From positions 46,685,590-46,749,589 of the forward strand of contig NC_091292.1 in assembly GCF_038502225.1 (NCBI RefSeq): 64,000 nt of DNA, given 5' to 3'. The translations under genes were made by a program, and so were the position numbers. Below the pieces are notes generated by a model. That model was not told where the DNA came from, made no database searches, and saw only the letters and a list, made by a program, of their open reading frames with translations. Positions 26,311 to 63,753 of the stretch are shown piece after piece. Position 1 is the first letter of the stretch, and each line of letters starts with the position of its first letter. This DNA comes from Cherax quadricarinatus (lineage: Eukaryota; Arthropoda; Malacostraca; Decapoda; Parastacidae).

Positions 26311-27689
<1,379 letters not shown>

Positions 27690-27830: not shown

Positions 27831-27914
27831 CCATACCCCGGCCGGGATTGAGCCCGCGGTCATAGAGTCTCAAAACTCCAGCCCGTCGCGTTAGCCACTA
27901 GACCAGCTAGCCAC
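27831..27914 (-). repeat. tRNA-like head of SINE unit 1
   Basis: The minus strand has an A-box-like TAGCTGGTCTAGTGG and a B box GGTTCAATCCC (GGGCTCAATCCC in this unit) at tRNA spacing. The same head recurs at 28102-28185, 28373-28456 and, truncated, at 28644-28708. The anticodon stem has a 6-nt loop (TTTGAG), so it is not a functional tRNA. Confidence 0.7.
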
Positions 27915-28607
27915 AATAAGATTCATCCAACTAGGTATATTTCTACACCATAGGAAGGTTAGCACAGGCACCACTGTGACCACAAATGCAAGTTTTTACA
28001 GACGAATCTCCAGCTAGCGTGGCCGTGACGAACTCTAGCTCAAGTCCCTTCACTGCCGTCAACATGACTCACGAAATCGTAATGACACGATTGCAAACAA
28101 ACCATACCACGGCCGGGATTGAACCCGCGGTTATAGAGTCTCAAAACTCCAGCCCGTCGCGTTAGCCACTAGACCAGCTAGCCACAATAAGATTCATCCA
28201 ACTAGGTATATTTCTACACCATAGGAAGGTTAGCACAGGCACCACTGTGACCACAAATGCAAGTTTTTACAGACGAATCTCCAGCTAGCGTGGCCGTGAC
28301 GAACTCTAGCTCAAGTCCCTTCACTGCCGTCAACATGACTCACGAAATCGTAATGACACGATTGCAAACAAACCATACCCCGGCCGGGATTGAACCCGCG
28401 GTCATAGAGTCTCAAAACTCCAGCCCGTCGCGTTAGCCACTAGACCAGCTAGCCACAATAAGATTCATCCAACTAGGTATATTTCTACACCATAGGAAGG
28501 TTAGCACAGGCACCACTGTGACCACAAATGCAAGTTTTTACAGACGAATCTCCAGCTAGCGTGGCCGTGACGAACTCTAGCTCAAGTCCCTTCACTGCCG
28601 TCAACAT

Positions 28608-28793
28608 GACTCACGAAATCGTAATGACACGATTGCAAACAAACCATACCCCGGCCGGGATTGAACCCGCGGTCATAGAGTCTCAAAACTCCAGCCCGTC
28701 GCGTTAGCTGGAGTTTTGAGACTCTTTGACCGCGGGTTCAATCCGGCCGGGGTATGGTTTGTTTGCAATCATGTCATTACGATTTCGTGAGTC
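28608..28793. repeat. large inverted repeat, about 88-bp arms, 11-bp loop
   Basis: Left arm 28608-28695 and right arm 28707-28793 are complementary except for a few mismatches; the loop is about CCGTCGCGTTA. The right arm ends at the target duplication. Confidence 0.9.
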
Positions 28794-48065: not shown

Positions 48066-49363
<1,298 letters not shown>

Positions 49364-49376
49364 GAAACCAGTGTTG
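49364..49376 (+). repeat. target-site duplication, left copy
   Basis: GAAACCAGTGTTG, repeated exactly at 58519-58531 just after an A-rich tail. Confidence 0.88.
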
Positions 49377-49487
49377 CATTGTCCTCATCGCTCTCGGGCC
49401 GTGTGGACCTACTGCGCAGAAGCGCAGTGGTGTGAGGTGGTGCTGTCGCGCCTCTGCTGACAATATAGGAGTGCTGTTGTTGTCAAA

Positions 49488-50663
49488 ATGGCGGTTAGTC
49501 TAAGACGCCGGATTAATACTGTCGGCATAGAACTACTTCGAGGAACGATTATGCCTAGTTCTGTGCAAGTCTTATTACCCAAGATGAACCGGGAGACGTA
49601 CGGCATACAAGATGGTGACTTATATGGGGTTGCATTAAATGGAGCCCAAAGAATTTTCGTAAAACTGCTAACGGCGACGGTCTATGAATCGTTGGTCACC
49701 CGGTTTCAGGATGTGAGTCTTACCGTCACACCAGCTGTCTATATGAGAATGATTGATGTTTCACGGTATTATACCTGGATCAAGTTATGCAACGTTCCCT
49801 TTGAGGCGGACGAGACAGATATCAGGAAAGTTTTTGAGAAGTATGGAACAGTTCATTATGCTCAGCATGGTACGTGGGTGGCAGGCACCTATGCTGGTCT
49901 GCAAGAGGGTACTTTCAACCTCAAAATGACTCTGAGACACCCAATACCGTCCTATGTTTATGTACAAGAATTCAGGACGCAGGTCATGGTTATGTATCCA
50001 GGGCAACGACGTAAGTGCCGCCTATGTGGTGAGTATGATCACAGAGCGGCGACTTGTGGCAAGCGGAGACGTGTGCCTGGACATGTGGACGTCGCAGCCC
50101 CTGCTTCAAAGGTGGCAGGTGTGGAACAACCATCGGACGGAGGGTGTGGTGTTTTGTGGAGTGAGATAGTGGATCAGGCACACAGAACTGGAGGTGGGTT
50201 GGAGTCCCTCACCCAGTTGCCTGACCCGGTGTCTCCACCTGTGGATAAGGAGGAGCAGCAACTACAGGAGCAGGTTATTGAAATTGAGGAGGAATTGGTG
50301 GAGATTTTGAAGACTTTGTCACCGCCTGAGGGGGACATTACATCCGAGCTAGGTGCCACTGGAGAGTCGTCGCTTCCAGTAAGTCGGGGACGTGATATTT
50401 TGGGAAGTGATGGTGTGTTGGAGTCGTCCCTAGAATCACTAAACCATTGTCACGTGGAGGTGGAGGTTCATCGTGAGGCAACATCTGATCAAGATACGTG
50501 TAACGTGCCTGTCACGAGAAAGAGGGCGGCTATGTCAGATTCTGATGATGTCCTGACGCCAGCGCAAAAGCCTGGGAAACAAACTGAGGTGGAGTGTGAA
50601 GGTAGTGGTGTAGGTGGTGGTAGCCATGATAGGAGGCACCGGAAGAAGGGGGGAGGGGGATAA
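49488..50663 (+). CDS. Tx1-like LINE ORF1 protein (RRM-like and CCHC zinc knuckle)
   Basis: 391 codons, fully open, ATG at 49488 in a CAAAATGGC context. Residues about 95-172 look like an RNA-recognition domain (WIKLCNVPFEADETDIRKVF, FNLKMTLRHPIPSYVYV). A zinc knuckle CRLCGEYDHRAATC (C-x2-C-x4-H-x4-C) follows at about 176-189, then an acidic, low-complexity C-terminus rich in Glu (QVIEIEEELVEILKTL) ending in basic HDRRHRKKGG. Such proteins bind LINE RNA in the RNP. Open frame against a broken ORF2 suggests the insertion is not very old. ORF2 starts about 100 bp downstream. Confidence 0.82.
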   Translation: MAVSLRRRINTVGIELLRGTIMPSSVQVLLPKMNRETYGIQDGDLYGVALNGAQRIFVKLLTATVYESLVTRFQDVSLTVTPAVYMRMIDVSRYYTWIKLCNVPFEADETDIRKVFEKYGTVHYAQHGTWVAGTYAGLQEGTFNLKMTLRHPIPSYVYVQEFRTQVMVMYPGQRRKCRLCGEYDHRAATCGKRRRVPGHVDVAAPASKVAGVEQPSDGGCGVLWSEIVDQAHRTGGGLESLTQLPDPVSPPVDKEEQQLQEQVIEIEEELVEILKTLSPPEGDITSELGATGESSLPVSRGRDILGSDGVLESSLESLNHCHVEVEVHREATSDQDTCNVPVTRKRAAMSDSDDVLTPAQKPGKQTEVECEGSGVGGGSHDRRHRKKGGGG

Positions 50664-50734
50664 GAGAGCACTCTGAAGGTGTCAAATATGAATTCAGGTT
50701 CTGGAGTTGTAAAGAGTGAGGAGAGGAGGCAGGG

Positions 50735-53700
50735 GTGGAAACTTTAAAAGGCCTTACGTGTATGACTGTAAATGTTAATGGTTTATGTAGCAGTATGAAG
50801 AGAGATTGGTTTCGTACTTTCCTGAATAAATCTAGAGTGGATGTTCTGTTCCTGCAGAAGCATTATTTTAAAGAGGGTAGGGTGTTGGAGGTGGCAGGGT
50901 TTCGAGTAGTTACCCTGCCATCTCCCCGTCTAAAAGGTGGTGTGGGTATTTTAATAAGGGAAACGAGCCCGTTTGTTTTGCAGAGAAACGAGGGAGGTGG
51001 GGGACGGAGGGTGTTGTGTGTGGATGGGTGGTGGATGGGTAAGTGTGTGTCTTCTGTGAGTGTGTATGCACCGGCGGAAAATAACGTACAGGTAAAGAAT
51101 GATTTTGTGTGTGAGGATCTTGTGTTTTTCTTACGTGCACTGCCAGAGGTGGCAATAGTTGGTGGGGACTGGAATTGTGTAATCAGGGTGGCTGACGTGG
51201 ACCCAAAAGGGACTGGATGTATGTCTGTTAGGGAATTGTTAAAGGATGTCAGGTTACGTGATGCATTTGGGGGGGGGGGAGACTGAACATACGTTCGTTA
51301 GGAGTGGATATGCTGCGAGGCTAGATAGAGTGTACCTTTCTCAGGGAGTGGATGTGAAATCTTTCAGTACTGTTGAGGCTACTATATCAGATCATAGGGC
51401 AGTGATGGTGGAGGTTGGGTGGGGGGGGGGAGCGCTCGTGGAAATATACAGAAGTTATTGGAAACTAAATATAAGTATGTTAGGTGAAGAGGAGGGGTTG
51501 GAGGGGTTTTCAGTCCTATGGAGGGAGCTTAGTGTGGAAGAACAGAGGGTGGACGACATTGTGACATGGTGGGATTGTGTTGCAAAGGAAAGGATTAGAA
51601 AGCTTTATGTGAGGCAAGGAAAACGTATTAATAATTTAAAATATGGACTGGCTAACTATTTAGAGGATAGGTTAAGAGGTTGCTATGGGCGGGGGGTGAT
51701 TGGGAATAATTTTCCTATGGATGAAATAGTTGAAATAAAAGGGAGATTGAGGGTGTTACAAAATAAAAGGTTTCAAGCTGTAAGGGTGCAGGCAGGGGTG
51801 GAAGAAGTGTTTTGGGGCGACAAGCCGTCTGTGTGTGTTTTGCGGCATCAAAAGCAAAGGCAGGCAGTGACGGCTATCCCAAGTTTGGGGATGTGTGCAT
51901 ATGCACACATCCCCACGAAGGGGATGTGTGCATATGCAGAGGCTTGGTATGAGAAGTACTGGACAAGTGGGGGGGTGGGTGCCGGGGCGTTAGACAAAGT
52001 GTGTACGTATGAGACTTGTAATTTAGGAAATAGCGACAGAAAGGCTTTTAGGTGGGATTATTACGGCAGAGGAAATAGAGAATGCGTTAAGGGGAATGAG
52101 GAAGGGGAAAACTCCAGGAAACTGACGGTCTCCCGGTAGAATTTTATTTACAATATTGGATGTTAATACGGGGATTTATAGTTAGGTTATTTAATCGTAT
52201 GAAGGAGAAGAGTAAGTTGGGGGAGAAGCAGGCTACAGCACGTGTAGTGTTGGTCTCGAAGGGCATGGGGCAGCCCACCCTACGGGAGTACCGAGCCATA
52301 TCGCCGATGTGTGCAGACTATAAGGTTTTTGCAGAAATTTTAGGTAATAGGTTCATATGTGTTGTGGGGAGGGTGGTGTCGAAATCTCAGTTTGGGTTGC
52401 CAGGAAGGTCGATGATTGAAGGACATGGGATACTGCCAAGTTTTGTGGAAGCTAAAGGTGGGGGTGGGGGTGGGGGGGTTTTGTTGGCTCTAGATTAGCA
52501 GGGAGCTTATGATAGAGTAGAAAGGAGAGCTTTGCAGGTTATACTTAGGAGACAGGGTTATGGGGAGGAAATAGTCGAGTGGGTAAATACGTTGTACAAG
52601 GGGGCGAAAATGAGGATGCAGATTAATGGGTGTATGGGGAGGTAGATTGCAATGGGTAGAGGCCTTAGATAGGGATGTCCCATGTCCCAAATATTGTCTG
52701 CGTGTTTTCAGGACCCCTTTTATAGAATGGTTGACCGTAGCTTATGTACTCAAGGTGAGGGAAGTGTGGGGGTGGGAGGGCCTGGCCGGGTTTAATTGGA
52801 TATATAGACGACACCACTGTTCTCATTCGTGAAGGGATGTCAATGGGAGTATTGGACGAGGTTGTGCAATTGTTTGGAAGTGCCACGGGGCGGTGTCTTT
52901 AAAGATTTGTTGTATTATTTATAGGGATGACATGGTTGCGGCGCGGGTGGAAAACTCGGATAGGTTATTGGAAAGGATCGTGGGGCGTCTAGGTGTTTTG
53001 AGACCCCAGCACCTAACTCTTATACAGCGAGTGATAGTTGTAAATATTTTATTGTATAGTAAGGTTTGGCATGTTGCAGCTGTGTTCCCAATTACAGGGA
53101 CAGCGATTGCGGGGATCTTAAGACGGGTGTACAAATTTTTGTGGGGTTCACGTTGTGATTGGTTAAGGAGAGAAGTTGTAATGTTACCTGTACGTCAGGG
53201 TGGGTTGGGGTTGATGGATGTGAGACGGAGGGCTAAATGTGTGTTTCTTAAATGGGAAGTTTTGCGTGTGGGTGTGAACGCGGGGCAGCTGGGAAGGATA
53301 CATGACAGGCTGGGTATGTGGTATCGAGGAATGGAGTTGAGGGAATGCGAAATCGTTTTGAGGGCCGTGATGTTGGTTAAGGAATTGAGAAAGGTTCGCA
53401 TAAGGGTTTTGTGTAGGTTGCTTGTAGGTAGGTGCGTTGTCCCAGTTGAGGGCTTGTTCCCCATGTATACGTGGAAGAGTATTTGGTATAGATTTAGTAA
53501 GTTGAAGTTAAACCCTCGGGCGCGTGAGGTGATGTTTCGTTTTCTGCATGGTATCCTTCCGTCTGGAGCGATACTACGAAACAGAAAGGTTGTAGAGGGT
53601 GGGGTGTGTGGTATCTGTGGAGGGGACGAGACTGCGTTCCATGTAGTTTATTTTTGTGAGGGGTTAGAAGAGGTCAGGTGCTGGTTAGGTAGGTTGGAAC

Positions 53701-53741
53701 AGAGGGTGGGAGGCCGTGGGGTGTCGGTTCTGCGTGGGTGA
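50735..53741 (+). pseudogene. Tx1-like LINE ORF2 (endonuclease, RT, zinc finger), broken
   Basis: Endonuclease: MTVNVNGLCSSMKRDWF, VDVLFLQKHYFKEG (the catalytic Glu of the usual QETH is Lys), AIVGGDWNCVIRV, then after a slip in a G run near 51275 ARLDRVYLSQG and TISDHRAVMVEV. RT: QPTLREYRAISPMCADYKVF, SQFGLPGRSMIEGHG, LLALD, a TAG stop at 52496-52498, then QGAYDRVERRALQVI (motif A), GCPMSQ in another frame, and GYIDDTTVLIREG (motif C). C-terminal frame 52893-53741 ends with CGICGGDETAFHVVYFCEG, a CCHC finger. At least three frame slips, a stop and the EN substitution make it inactive. Confidence 0.83.
51887..51937. repeat. 28-bp perfect palindrome plus third copy of its half
   Basis: GGGGATGTGTGCAT joins ATGCACACATCCCC at 51887-51914. 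Five bases later GGGGATGTGTGCATATGC (51920-51937) repeats the first 18 bases. It lies in ORF2 before the RT fingers. Confidence 0.9.
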
Positions 53742-54697
53742 TGAGGGGGAGAAGGGATAGTGAAGAGCGAAGGGAGGTTCTGGCGATAACGTTCTATCGT
53801 AACAGAGATTTGTATGGGAGGAGGTGGGATCAGGTTTTCTCAGAGGGGTATAGAATGCTGACGTTAGGAATTCTCATGAATCTGTGAATGATACTGAGTG
53901 AATGAAGGGGTTTTCATAGGTAGAGAGGGAGTCAGGGGGTCACAGTGGGCTCCCCTCCTGGGGGGTGGGGTCGTGAGAGTGTTGTGAATGTGGGTATGGA
54001 ATGGTTTCCTGGCTTTCATTAATGCATTATTGCATCAACCTTGTGGTTATCATGCCACATGTGGATGTAGAGTTTGAGGTCTCGTTATGATCTATATAAC
54101 ATATTTAAAATGATCCATATAACATATTTAAAATGATCTATATAACATATTTAAAATGATCTATATAACATATTTAAAACTTTATGTATGATTTCGATTC
54201 ATTTTAAAGTTTACATAATTTAGGTCAGTGATCTCATACCAGTTTGTTTTCATTGCGATGTTCTTGATGTAAGTTTTTAGCTGTATGGTAGACAGACACA
54301 TCTAGCCAGTTTATAGACGCATTGCTTTTGTGTCTGAGATTTTTGTATACGTGTTTATTGTACCAGTAATGGACCTTCGGTTTTGAGATATAAGCTGTTT
54401 TCTTTTTTATGTTTATTCGTATTTTAGTATATATTACAGCTGTATTGTTAGTGATAAATATGTAGATGTTCTAGTAAGATTATGTTGTTAGGTTTTGGTT
54501 TATTGATTAATGCGAAGAATGGGATTAATTGATACATTTTCTTGTATATATTCTTTTCTATTGTATTGAGCCTTTGTCATGTCATGTTATATGTACAATT
54601 TATATATATGTAAGGTTTTGAATCATTGAATGTTTATCGATTTTTCAGTTCATGACCCTGTTACTGTGTTTATTTGTAGCTATGTTCTTGCCCTAAG
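53742..54697 (+). other. proximal 3' UTR of LINE T1
   Basis: No coding content. Contains four copies of a 23-bp unit at 54088-54179 (TGATCTATATAACATATTTA and three more bases). AT-rich from about 54180. Confidence 0.7.
54088..54179 (+). repeat. four tandem copies of a 23-bp unit
   Basis: Starts at 54088, 54111, 54134 and 54157 with one substitution (CC for CT in copy 2). Confidence 0.93.
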
Positions 54698-57600
54698 TTA
54701 TTGTTGTATGTTATACAGCAATATCTTGCGAGTATATTGTTGTATGTTGTACAGCAATATCTTGCAAGTATATTGTTGTATGTTATACAGCAATATCTTG
54801 CGAGTATATTGTTGTATGTTATACAGCAATATCTTGCGAGTATATTGTTGTATGTTATACAGCAATATCTTGCGAGTATATTATTGTATGTTATACATCA
54901 ATATCTTGCGAGTATATTGTTGTATGTTATACAGCAATATCTTGCGAGTATATTGTTGTATGTTATACAGCAATATCTTGCGAGCATATTGTTGTATGTT
55001 ATACAGCAATATCTTGCGAGTATATTGTTGTATGTAATACAGCAATATCTTGCGAGTATATTGTTGTATGTAATACAGCAATATCTTGCGAGTATATTGT
55101 TGTATGTTATACAGCAATACCTTGCGAGTATATTGTTGTATGTTATACAGCTATATCTTGCAAGTATATTGTTGTATGTTATACAGCTATATCTTGCGAG
55201 TATATTGTTGTATGTAATACAGCAATATCTTGCGAGCATATTGTTGTATGTTATACAGCAATATCTTGCGAGTATATTGTTGTATGTAATACAGCAATAT
55301 CTTGCGAGTATATTGTTGTATGTTATACAGCAATATCTTGCGAGTATATTGTTGTATGTTATACAGCAATATCTTGCGAGTATATTGTTGTATGTTATAC
55401 AGCTATATCTTGCAAGTATATTGTTGTATGTTATACAGCTATATCTTGCGAGTATATTGTTGTATGTTATACAGCAATATCTTGCGAGTATATTGTTGTA
55501 TGTTATACAGCAATATCTTGCGAGTATATTGTTGTATGTTATACAGCAATATCTTGCGAGTATATTGTTGTATGTTATACAGCAATATCTTGCGAGTATA
55601 TTGTTGTATGTAATACAGCAATATCTTGCGAGTATATTGTTGTATGTTATACAGCAATATCTTGCGAGTATATTGTTGTATGTAATACAGCAATATCTTG
55701 CGAGTATATTGTTGTATGTTATACAGCAATATCTTGCGAGTATATTGTTGTATGTAATACAGCAATATCTTGCGAGTATATTGTTGTATGTAATACAGCA
55801 ATATCTTGCGAGTATATTGTTGTATGTTATACAGCAATATCTTGCGAGTATATTGTTGTATGTTATACAGCAATATCTTGCGAGTATATTGTTGTATGTA
55901 ATACAGCAATATCTTGCGAGTATATTGTTGTATGTTATACAGCAATATCTTGCGAGTATATTGTTGTATGTAATACAGCAACATCTTGCGAGTATATTGT
56001 TGTATGTAATACAGCAATATCTTGCGAGTATATTGTTGTATGTAATACAGCAATATCTTGCGAGTATATTGTTGTATGTAATACAGCAATATCTTGCGAG
56101 TATATTGTTGTATGTAATACAGCAATATCTTGCGAGTATATTGTTGTATGTAATACAGCAATATCTTGCGAGTATATTGTTGTATGTAATACAGCAATAT
56201 CTTGCGAGTATATTGTTGTATGTTATACAGCAATATCTTGCGAGTATATTGTTGTATGTTATACAGCAATATCTTGCGAGTATATTGTTGTATGTAATAC
56301 AGCAATATCTTGCGAGTATATTGTTGTATGTTATACAGCAATATCTTGCGAGTATATTGTTGTATGTAATACAGCAATATCTTGCGAGTATATTGTTGTA
56401 TGTAATACAGCAATATCTTGCGAGTATATTGTTGTATGTAATACAGCAATATCTTGCGAGTATATTGTTGTATGTAATACAGCAATATCTTGCGAGTATA
56501 TTGTTGTATGTTATACAGCAATATCTTGCGAGTATATTGTTGTATGTAATACAGCAATATCTTGCGAGTATATTGTTGTATGTAATACAGCAATATCTTG
56601 CGAGTATATTGTTGTATGTTATACAGCAATATCTTGCGAGTATATTGTTGTATGTAATACAGCAATATCTTGCGAGTATATTGTTGTATGTAATACAGCA
56701 ATATCTTGCGAGTATATTGTTGTATGTAATACAGCAATATCTTGCGAGTATATTGTTGTATGTAATACAGCAATATCTTGCGAGTATATTGTTGTATGTA
56801 ATACAGCAATATCTTGCGAGTATATTGTTGTATGTAATACAGCAATATCTTGCGAGTATATTGTTGTATGTAATACAGCAATATCTTGCGAGTATATTGT
56901 TGTATGTTATACAGCAATATCTTGCGAGTATATTGTTGTATGTTATACAGCAATATCTTGCGAGTATATTGTTGTATGTAATACAGCAATATCTTGCGAG
57001 TATATTGTTGTATGTAATACAGCAATATCTTGCGAGTATATTGTTGTATGTAATACAGCAATATCTTGCGAGTATATTGTTGTATGTTATACAGCAATAT
57101 CTTGCGAGTATATTGTTGTATGTAATACAGCAATATCTTGCGAGTATATTGTTGTATGTAATACAGCAATATCTTGCGAGTATATTGTTGTATGTAATAC
57201 AGCAATATCTTGCGAGTATATTGTTGTATGTTATACAGCAATATCTTGCGAGTATATTGTTGTATGTAATACAGCAATATCTTGCGAGTATATTGTTGTA
57301 TGTAATACAGCAATATCTTGCGAGTATATTGTTGTATGTAATACAGCAATATCTTGCGAGTATATTGTTGTATGTAATACAGCAATATCTTGCGAGTATA
57401 TTGTTGTATGTAATACAGCAATATCTTGCGAGTATATTGTTGTATGTAATACAGCAATATCTTGCGAGTATATTGTTGTATGTTATACAGCAATATCTTG
57501 CGAGTATATTGTTGTATGTTATACAGCAATATCTTGCGAGTATATTGTTGTATGTTATACAGCAATATCTTGCGAGTATATTGTTGTATGTTATACAGCA

Positions 57601-58373
57601 ATATCTTGCGAGTATATTGTTGTATGTAATACAGCAATATCTTGCGAGTATATTGTTGTATGTAATACAGCAATATCTTGCGAGTATATTGTTGTATGTA
57701 ATACAGCAATATCTTGCGAGTATATTGTTGTATGTAATACAGCAATATCTTGCGAGTATATTGTTGTATGTTATACAGCAATATCTTGCGAGTATATTGT
57801 TGTATGTAATACAGCAATATCTTGCGAGTATATTGTTGTATGTTATACAGCAATATCTTGCGAGTATATTGTTGTATGTAATACAGCAATATCTTGCGAG
57901 TATATTGTTGTATGTTATACAGCAATATCTTGCGAGTATATTGTTGTATGTTATACAGCAATATCTTGCGAGTATATTGTTGTATGTAATACAGCAATAT
58001 CTTGCGAGTATATTGTTGTATGTTATACAGCAATATCTTGCGAGTATATTGTTGTATGTTATACAGCAATATCTTGCGAGTATATTGTTGTATGTAATAC
58101 AGCAATATCTTGCGAGTATATTGTTGTATGTTATACAGCAATATCTTGCGAGTATATTGTTGTATGTAATACAGCAATATCTTGCGAGTATATTGTTGTA
58201 TGTTATACAGCAATATCTTGCGAGTATATTGTTGTATGTTATACAGCAATATCTTGCGAGTATATTGTTGTATGTAATACAGCAATATCTTGCGAGTATA
58301 TTGTTGTATGTTATACAGCAATATCTTGCGAGTATATTGTTGTATGTTATACAGCAATATCTTGCGAGTATAT
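54698..58373 (+). repeat. 36-bp minisatellite, about 102 units, each a 12-bp hairpin
   Basis: Each unit is arm ATATTGTTGTAT, loop GTT or GTA, arm ATACAGCAATAT, spacer CTTGCGAGT. The arms pair over 12 positions (11 Watson-Crick, one G-T). The main variation is the third loop base (T or A); rarer changes (GCTATAT, GCAAGT, GAGCAT) cluster in the first 20 units. Because 36 is a multiple of 3, long frames stay open on both strands; they are not genes. Confidence 0.97.
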
Positions 58374-58499
58374 GGGTGTAATCCTTTTGTGTCAGTTAAT
58401 TTGTGTCGGGTTTATTTGGTCAGTGTTCGAACCTTCAGGACTGAGATCCATACTGATACCTTTTTATTTTTTATTTTTATGTTACGCTGTATTGGTTTT

Positions 58500-58518
58500 A
58501 AATAAAATATAAAAAAAA
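58500..58518 (+). terminator. poly(A) signal and oligo-A end of LINE T1
   Basis: AAATAAAATATAAAAAAAA directly before the right target duplication. Confidence 0.75.
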
Positions 58519-58531
58519 GAAACCAGTGTTG
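58519..58531 (+). repeat. target-site duplication, right copy
   Basis: GAAACCAGTGTTG, identical to 49364-49376. Confidence 0.88.
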
Positions 58532-58600
58532 GACAGCGGTGGAGCATTGTGTACCTAGTTCCAAGGTTCCAAGGTTTGAGTCTCCTTCGGCCTGAGATTA
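58526..58600 (+). repeat. tRNA-like sequence at the insertion target
   Basis: A-box-like GACAGCGGTGGAGC (58532-58545) and B-box-like GGTTTGAGTCTCC (58573-58585) at tRNA-like spacing. Probably a tRNA-derived SINE head; too diverged for a tRNA gene. Confidence 0.35.
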
Positions 58601-58939
58601 GTGTTTGTGAATATCTCGCCTGTACTGGGAATTGTGAACATACATATATATTTATATACATGGATTGAGAAATACACTTTTCATTGAATATATCATTATG
58701 AAATGAATATCGCACCTTGAAGCACCGAGTTACTTACATAAATATATGTTTAATAAACGCAAGTATGACAAATACGTTAGCAAAATCAACACCAACTGTA
58801 ATCGAGGAAGAAGATGACTCTGTATTTACCAAGTGGACTCCCAAGGCTGTTACAGGAGTGCATATCATCATGGAAAATAGGATATAACATTGGTGTTAAA
58901 AATTAGATTCAAGTAAAAATAGATTTATGTGTTTACGGT

Positions 58940-58943: not shown

Positions 58944-59026
<83 letters not shown>
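58944..59026. repeat. (CA)n microsatellite
   Basis: Pure CA run preceding the truncated 5' end of B7. Confidence 0.97.
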
Positions 59027-59028
<2 letters not shown>

Positions 59029-60701
59029 AGATTTAAGGAAGTTTTTACAGTAAAGACAGGAAGGGCTCCGGGAAGACAACACAGAAGGGAACATCAAGAG
59101 GGAATATACCAACAAGTGTTGGATGACATACGAACAACCGAGGAGGAAGTGCAGAAGGTGCTAAGTGACCTTGATACCTCAAAGGCGATGGGACCAGACA
59201 ACATCTCCCAGTGCGTCCTTAGAGAAGGAGCAGAGATGCTGTGCGTGCCCCTAACCACAATCTTCAACACATCCCTTCAAACTGGGCAACTACCTGAGAA
59301 ATGGAAGACAGCAAATGTAGTCCCCATATTTAAGAAAGGAAATAGAAACGAGGCACTAAACTACAAACCTGTGTCTCTGACATGTATAGTATGCAAAGTC
59401 ATGGAGAAGATTATCAGAAGGAGAGTGGTGGAACACCTGGAACGGAACAAGATTATAAATGAAAACCAGCATGGATTCAAGGCAAATCCTGTGTCACAAA
59501 CCTTCTGGAGTTTTATGACAAGGTAACAGAAGTAAGACACGAGAGAGAGGGGTGGGTTGATTGCATTTTCCTGGACTGCAGGAAGGCCTTTGACACAGTT
59601 CCTCACAAGAGATTAGTGCAGAAGCTGGAGGATCAGACGCATATAACAGGGAGGGCACTGCAATGGATCAGGGAATACCTGACAGGGAGGCAACAACGAG
59701 TCATGGTAGGTGAAGAGGTATCACAGTGGGCGCCTGTGACGAGCGGGGTTCCACAGGGGTCAGTTCTAGGACCAGTGCTATTTTTGATATATGCGAACGA
59801 CATGATGGAAGGAATAGACTCTGAATTGTCCCTATTCGCAGATGATGTGAAGCTGATGAGAAGAATTAAATCGGATGAGGATGAGGCAGGATTGCAAAGA
59901 GACCTGGACAGGCTGGACACGTGGTCCAGAAACTGGCTTCTCGAATTCAACTCTGCCAAATGCAAAGTCACGAAGATTGGGGAGGGGCAAAGAAGACCGC
60001 AGACAGAGTATAGGCTAGGTGGACAAAGACTACAGACCTCACTCATCGAAAACGATCTTGGGGTGACCATAACACCGAGCACGTCACCGGAGGCACACAT
60101 CAACCAAATAACTGCTGCAGCATACGGGCGCCTGGCAAACCTGAGAATAGCGGTCCAATACCTTAATAAGGAATCGTTCAAGACACTGTACACTGTGTAT
60201 GTTAGGCGCATACTGGAATATGCAGCACCAGTCTGGAACCAACACCTGGTCAAGCACATCAAGAAGTTAGAGAAAGTACAAAGGTTTGCAACAAGGCTAG
60301 TTCCAGAGCTCAGGGGAATGTCGTACGAGGAATTGTTGAGGGAAATCGGAATGACGACACTGGAGGACAGAAGGGTCAGGGGAGACATGATAACGACATA
60401 CAAGATACAAGGTGGACAAAGACAGGATGTTCCAGGGAGGGGACACAGAAACAAGGGGTCACAATTGGAAGTTGAAGACTCAGACGAGTCACAGGGACGT
60501 TAGGAAGCATTTCTTCAGTCATAGAGTCGTCAGGAAGTGGAATAGTCTAGCAAGTGAAGTAGTGGAGGCAGGAACCATACATAGTTTTAAGAAGAGGTAT
60601 GACAAAGCTCAGGAAGCAGAGAGGGAGAGGACCTAGTAGCGATCAGTGAAAAGGCGGGGCCAGGAGCTGAGTCTCGACCCCTGCAACCACAATTAGGTGA
60701 G

Positions 60702-60702
<1 letters not shown>
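59027..60702 (+). mobile_element. family-B LINE copy B7
   Basis: 5' truncated in the linker (GDLRKFLQ-type start), ends GACCCCTGCAACCACAATTA then GTGAGTAC and a CA run. Best-preserved RT of family B in this window. Confidence 0.86.
59116..60636 (+). pseudogene. family-B LINE reverse transcriptase (B7)
   Basis: Frame 59116-59526: TTEEEVQKVLSDLDTSKAMG, NIIP-like KTANVVPIFKKGNRNEALN, KVMEKIIRRRVVEHLERN. A one-base deletion near 59485 (FKANPVS in place of the GKSCVTN motif) shifts into the frame with motif A CIFLDCRKAFDTVPHKRL, motif B SGVPQGSVLGPVLFLIY and motif C LFADDVKLMRRI, then RRILEYAAPVWNQHLVKH and LTTLEDRR-type C-terminus (to 60503). A further frame (60412-60636) carries the last residues. 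Catalytic Asp residues are intact. Confidence 0.84.
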
Positions 60703-60893
<191 letters not shown>

Positions 60894-63427: not shown

Positions 63428-63718
63428 GGATGTTCCAGAGATGGGATACAAGAACAAAGGGTCACAATTGGAAGCTGAAGACTCAGATGAGTCAAAGGGA
63501 TGTTAGGAAGTATTTCTTCAGTTATAGAGTAGTTAGGAAGTGGAATAGTCTGGCAAGCGATGTAGTGGAGGCAGGAACTATACACAGTTTTAAGACGAGG
63601 TATGATAAAGCTCATGGAGCAGGGAGAGAGAGGACCCAGTAGCGGTCAGTGAAGAGGCGGGGCCAGGAGCTGAGTCTCGACCCCTGCAACCACAATTAGG
63701 TGAGTACAATTAGGTGAG
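63428..63718 (+). mobile_element. family-B LINE 3' end only (B9)
   Basis: Starts MFQRWDTRTKGHNWKLKTQM (63409 frame) and ends in the shared tail and two GTGAGTAC repeats. A near repeat of the last 290 bp of B8. Confidence 0.85.
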
Positions 63719-63722
63719 TACA

Positions 63723-63753
<31 letters not shown>
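63719..63753. repeat. short (CA)n
   Basis: CTCACACACA run after B9. Confidence 0.93.

Follow-up and report, generated by a model that had tools for sequence, protein, structure and literature searches.

The question raised by this locus is how a LINE of a crayfish came to hold 102 self-complementary units of 36 bp downstream of its coding region, and whether the fold predicted for them serves the element or is a consequence of how the repeat grew. The initial annotation had described about 102 tandem 36-bp hairpins in the 3' UTR of a LINE, and this description was confirmed within the window, i.e., the whole 64-kb stretch of DNA that was analysed. The array was called by TRF at 54699–58380 (period 36, 102.3 copies, 98% matches), and counting in register gave 102 full units followed by a partial unit, ATAT, up to 58373. 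A 24-base core of the unit (three mismatches or fewer, both strands) was matched 102 times in the window, each time within the array, where the number expected by chance is 0. As annotated, each unit can form a hairpin with a 12-bp stem containing one T·G pair (T7·G21) and a triloop, GTT or GTA. The units are less uniform than had been proposed: position 15 of the consensus is W, with T in 50 units and A in 52, so that the hairpins are not all identical, and the 9-nt spacer, taken to be constant, carries G33A in three units and T36C in two. The features of the element and of the array are collected in Table 1.

Table 1. Positions in the window of the LINE insertion, its coding remnants and its tandem arrays.
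Feature	Position	Strand	Basis
Left target-site duplication copy, GAAACCAGTGTTG	49364–49376		Exact match to 58519–58531
LINE insertion, 9,142 bp including the array	49377–58518	+	Target duplication, ORF1, ORF2 remnant, A-rich end
ORF1, with weak RRM-like stretch, CCHC zinc knuckle and premature TAA at 50661	49488–50744	+	Homology; CCHC by eye
ORF2 remnant: endonuclease, reverse transcriptase, zf-RVT-like C-terminus	50720–53887 (start approximate)	+
Second small tandem array in the LINE 3' UTR, 23 bp × 4.0	54087–54179	+	TRF
Tandem array, 102 units × 36 bp, consensus ATATTGTTGTATGTWATACAGCAATATCTTGCGAGT	54698–58369	+	TRF, in-register count, core-pattern search
Units 1–36, holding all 11 units that vary outside position 15	54698–55993	+
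Units 37–102, no variation except T/A at position 15	55994–58369	+
LINE 3' end: ATAT unit remnant, non-repeated sequence, AATAAA (58501–58506), A-rich tail	58370–58518	+
Right target-site duplication copy, GAAACCAGTGTTG	58519–58531		Exact match to left copy

The boundaries of the insertion are sharp. The 13-bp repeat is the only match of at least 9 bp between the compared flanks, 49301–49480 and 58471–58620, and the A-rich end adjoins its right copy, whereas a self-comparison of the element without the array revealed no terminal repeats (LTRs); a target-site duplication, an A-rich 3' end and the lack of LTRs are together what is expected of a LINE. The array follows the ORF2 remnant and precedes the A-rich end, 145 bp before the end of the LINE, and the claim that it lies inside an element bounded by an exact target duplication therefore stands. 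The second, smaller array in the same 3' UTR folds weakly when taken as six copies (−12.5 sense, −16.5 antisense).

The coding remnants are decayed and were assigned by homology. ORF1 was found to be 83% identical to the Cherax quadricarinatus protein P0001 over its 419 aa (98% of the query), and 15 of the 23 protein matches at E 1e-3 or better were named Cherax quadricarinatus; its RRM_1 match (E 0.068) fell below the Pfam cut-off, and a comparison with the PDB gave 0 matches up to E 1. The ORF2 remnant carries at least six frameshifts and three premature stops (52496, 52643 and 52670), the frameshift count and the coding pieces used for the stops being approximate, as the reading frames were judged by eye. 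Its pieces matched Exo_endo_phos (E 2e-4) and zf-RVT (E 7e-5), neither of which reached the Pfam curated cut-off, and RVT_1 gave no match in the five broken pieces scanned. The endonuclease found the L1 endonuclease in the PDB at E 8e-5, and the reverse transcriptase region was identified by alignment of RT-bearing (RVT_1) homologues, so that ORF2 combines an APE-type endonuclease with a reverse transcriptase, as in a LINE. When the joined ORF2 was used as query, 10 matches with 21–25% identity were obtained among the best 7990 candidates scored, one of them named Transposon TX1 protein. By judgement rather than by a tree, the remnants look L1/Tx1-type, and the label 'T1' given to the element earlier was borne out by no result. 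ORF1 carries a premature stop of its own, and the notion of an intact ORF1 beside a decayed ORF2 was therefore dropped. Within the ORF2 remnant, a short inverted repeat surrounds GGGGATGTGTGCATATGCA (51886–51938; 30 bp at 100% and 43 bp at 88% in self-comparison).

Other repeats and elements were observed elsewhere in the window. A LINE-like RT fragment (59026–59858) adjoins the element in a stretch (59026–60890) that also holds an (AC)n run at 60703–60890, and further RT fragments lie near 8, 26 and 32–46 kb. At 27548–27687 and 63692–63753, 14-mers like CAACTAGGTGAGAA and ACAATTAGGTGAGT are followed directly by (AC)n, as if a shared element 3' end had seeded a microsatellite at both places. 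A 271-bp tandem repeat (27831–28708; 3.2 copies, 99% alike, TRF) contains a tRNA-like stretch on the reverse strand, with A- and B-box-like motifs seen by eye, and continues at about 28709–28760 into the tRNA-like part in inverted orientation; no tRNA was called by ARAGORN in the 64-kb window.

The fold of an array RNA had been pictured as a string of about 100 hairpins. The hairpin of the single unit was recovered, whereas separate hairpins are not the predicted minimum of the whole. The 9-nt 'spacer' CTTGCGAG is self-complementary across units, CTTG pairing with CGAG (C·G, T·A, T·G, G·C) with one bulged T, so that base pairs can form between neighbouring units as well as within a unit. For the sense strand of the whole array the predicted minimum was one rod (−2112 kcal/mol, 91% of bases paired, 2 hairpin loops), compared with −1485 kcal/mol and 88% paired for the 102 hairpins obtained when the pairing span was limited to 36; at kilobase scale such energies are values of the model, and folding during transcription may favour the local hairpins. 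Folding of a few units, proposed in the initial annotation as a check, was run on four tandem copies, which gave −76.3 (T form) and −74.1 (A form), values reached by 0/2000 and 6/2000 dinucleotide-shuffled units, respectively, and self-complementarity thus goes beyond that of shuffles. A 144-nt stretch had a z of −12.1 against shuffles of itself, but a single out-of-register 36-nt piece (56810–56845) was not unusual, 38 of 200 shuffles folding as well. Real sequence served as a second control. Among 3000 36-mers of the window, from which the array and stretches of few dinucleotides had been dropped and in which GC-rich ones were included, 20 reached the T-form energy and 25 the A-form energy when tandemised four times; for overlapping 36-mers of the same 3' UTR, also in four copies, the counts were 27 and 28 out of 772. 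Depending on the control, at most a few per cent of sequences thus fold as well as the unit. A tandem array of this kind is far outside what chance would give, but a unit with this degree of palindromy is no more than uncommon.

The distribution of variants along the array bears on its age. Outside position 15, 15 substitutions were counted in 3,672 bp (0.41%), spread over 11 of the 102 units and all within units 1–36, with 0 in the 2,376 bp of the 66 units 37–102. The hypergeometric probability of this confinement is 3.4e-6; it treats the units as independent, which the 11 variant units are not, and uses a boundary picked once the data had been seen. Variants recur seven units on (the pair 13–14 at 20–21, T36C at 8 and 15), the other block positions differing, a pattern expected of an imperfect block duplication. 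At position 15, neither clustering nor a period was significant in the T/A order (runs test p 0.10; an autocorrelation as high as the best one in 309/2000 shuffles), and the longest repeated block, of 9 units, was close to the mean of 8.6 in shuffles. A higher-order repeat structure at this position was accordingly rejected, with nothing beyond shuffles, and recent block expansion is not directly visible there.

This variation was set against the lesions of the coding region, where 4,359 coding bases contained four premature stops (one in ORF1, three in ORF2). Under transition weighting, 3.7% of random substitutions create a stop, so that four stops imply a divergence of about 2.5%, with a rough range of 0.7–6.3% from the Poisson limits for a count of four; the lesions may predate insertion if the source copy was defective, in which case the estimate is not a date for the array. 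At 1% divergence, 37 array substitutions are expected and the probability of empty units 37–102 is 5e-11; it is 7e-6 at 0.5% and 8e-4 at 0.3%. At 0.5%, the count for the whole array is unremarkable (15 against 18 expected, P 0.26), and only the empty units 37–102 stand out. The unchanged state of these units, in a LINE with four premature stops, thus favours growth or homogenisation in place, although an array already present at insertion and homogenised later would look the same. The two origins offered earlier, carriage inside the insertion or expansion afterwards, were the right alternatives to pose, and the data lean to the second, at least for units 37–102.

On this evidence, the 36-bp unit probably grew into its 102-copy minisatellite mostly or wholly after the LINE had inserted, the fold being most likely a by-product of that growth. 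Also counted in favour of this reading were the exact target duplication that encloses the element together with its array, the second tandem array of this 3' UTR and the self-complementarity of the unit. The element would have been a full-length LINE of L1/Tx1 type that entered the genome of a Cherax-like crayfish through target-primed reverse transcription and later decayed; a 36-bp unit made of two short palindromes would originally have been part of its 3' UTR. The unit would then have expanded to 102 copies by replication slippage and out-of-register exchange, both favoured by foldback of the palindromic units, and expansion-proneness of this kind would alone account for the bias in fold. 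Growth or homogenisation may have been active in the 3' two-thirds of the array, leaving behind an older, mutated 5' edge. A sense transcript, if made, could form one long imperfect double-stranded rod, which would be a natural substrate for Dicer or ADAR.

The main alternative, which we consider unlikely, is that the array is a heritable trait of the LINE family, whose self-complementary 3' UTR would help active copies through binding of the ORF1 protein, protection of the RNA or the decoying of dsRNA factors. The place of the array within the insertion, so close to the end of the LINE, is in keeping with such a trait, as is the weak RRM-like stretch retained by ORF1. The sense strand also folds far better than the antisense strand (−2112 against −1159 kcal/mol), owing to two wobble positions that are both T·G in the sense orientation. 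However, two positions sharing one orientation is a 1-in-4 outcome, and two wobble positions cannot show selection; a sense/antisense difference as large as that of the unit was reached by 32/2000 and 48/2000 shuffled units, and the antisense fold itself is ordinary, its energy being reached by 842/2000 and 814/2000 shuffled sense units. A stretch of LINE body of the same length (50700–54371) was much less structured (−1046 sense, −589 antisense) with about the same strand ratio, so the stronger sense folding of the array is not special, and strand asymmetry was rejected as a sign of RNA selection. The variants point the same way: of eight types of change at paired positions, two keep the pair and six break it, close to the 18/96 kept by random change, and they give no sign of stem maintenance or of a selected fold. 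An array carried at insertion should moreover have diverged more, if the coding lesions postdate insertion, and the reverse transcriptase would have to cross a foldback template of 3.7 kb before reaching ORF2. Resemblance to known RNAs was also sought with Rfam. No match in the 64-kb window reached the gathering cut-off; with an E-value threshold, 55 matches were obtained in 53880–58540, all to miRNA precursor models and below their cut-off (the best at 35.6 bits against 139), and these were rejected as generic hairpin matches.

That an independent crayfish satellite or minisatellite entered the 3' UTR by insertion, conversion or template switching, without being part of the family, appears improbable. 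Nothing like the unit was found in the 200 bp upstream or the 140 bp downstream of the array, where local alignments scored 18 and 16 (reached by 185/500 and 237/500 shuffles); this agrees with an arrival from elsewhere, and a degenerate ancestral unit in the flanks was rejected. Freshwater crayfish genomes are, in passages of PMC13130569, described as rich in minisatellites. Against this, passages of the same source describe Parastacidae, the family of Cherax, as dominated by Class I elements rather than satellites, and the unit has no other copy in the 64-kb window. Peptides of the array also had no homologue (0/1900 candidates at E 1 or better), although a peptide search suits repeats poorly. 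A pattern scan of viral contigs for the array gave 0 matches in a set from which records near the source genome were possibly left out.

A bolder form of the family reading is a long shot: a Cherax LINE lineage with a built-in, self-expanding palindromic 3' UTR would have a sense RNA that forms a dsRNA rod on the kilobase scale, each copy being a source of dsRNA or endo-siRNA that tames or serves the element. It is very improbable that copy number or homogeneity is partly a product of assembly (a collapsed or inflated repeat): a near-identical array of 3.7 kb would be hard for short reads, but the irregular T/A at position 15, with no block longer than shuffles give, is not what a looped assembly is expected to show, and no further copy of the flanks occurs elsewhere in the window.

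The plant element Ogre already offers a precedent for tandem repeats in a retrotransposon 3' UTR, and the crayfish array is a variant of such repeats. In plant Ogre/Tat LTR retrotransposons, 3' UTR tandem repeats expand into satellites, according to PMC7004042, whose reference list includes Macas et al. 2009. As far as described there, both cases have a short tandem array downstream of the coding region that is capable of local expansion to a longer, homogeneous one; in the single crayfish copy examined, the place of the array fits this pattern. Unlike Ogre, an LTR element of plants for which many copies were compared, the present element is a LINE from a crustacean, seen in one copy and with a self-complementary unit. 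Local stems shorter than those of the crayfish array occur in hp-CG4068, a Drosophila locus. Passages of PMC10317233 describe it as a tandem hairpin RNA cluster, with 20 hairpin copies in D. melanogaster and 9 in D. simulans, whose Dicer-2-dependent siRNAs target mus308. Both loci place tandem hairpins in one transcript, and the copy number of hp-CG4068 evolves fast in that account; it is a Dicer-2 siRNA locus with a target, whereas the crayfish array lies in a dead LINE. Tetris of Drosophila virilis is, by the title of PMC4079207, a foldback transposon providing building blocks of an emerging satellite; to judge from that title, a transposon is the source of a satellite in both cases, a DNA transposon there and a LINE 3' UTR here. 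Among decapods, a repeat table in PMC3124438 gives a 177-bp tandem repeat × 1.9 for the LINE/I family FAM9_1-14 of the shrimp Penaeus monodon. Going by that table, both are decapod LINEs with a tandem repeat somewhere inside the element. Xenopus Tx1 is a LINE-type element with internal tandem repeats of about 400 bp; it resembles the crayfish element in combining an L1/Tx1-type coding region with such repeats, and differs from it, as here they are palindromic units of 36 bp in the 3' UTR. The terms '36 bp' and 'palindrom' are absent from the main text of the crayfish satellite papers PMC13130569 and PMC7859515, as are 'Tx1' and 'UTR' from the portion of PMC10454600 consulted. By title or abstract start, no LINE with such a 3' UTR was found among the matches listed for open-licence papers, which is no proof of absence.

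If the array recurs in other copies of the element, the transcript of this LINE would itself be a long dsRNA, and the element would be a direct test case for the sensing of transposons by the host and for the birth of satellites from LINEs. If the array is confined to this copy, the locus would illustrate cleanly how a palindromic minisatellite expands within an element that is itself dead.
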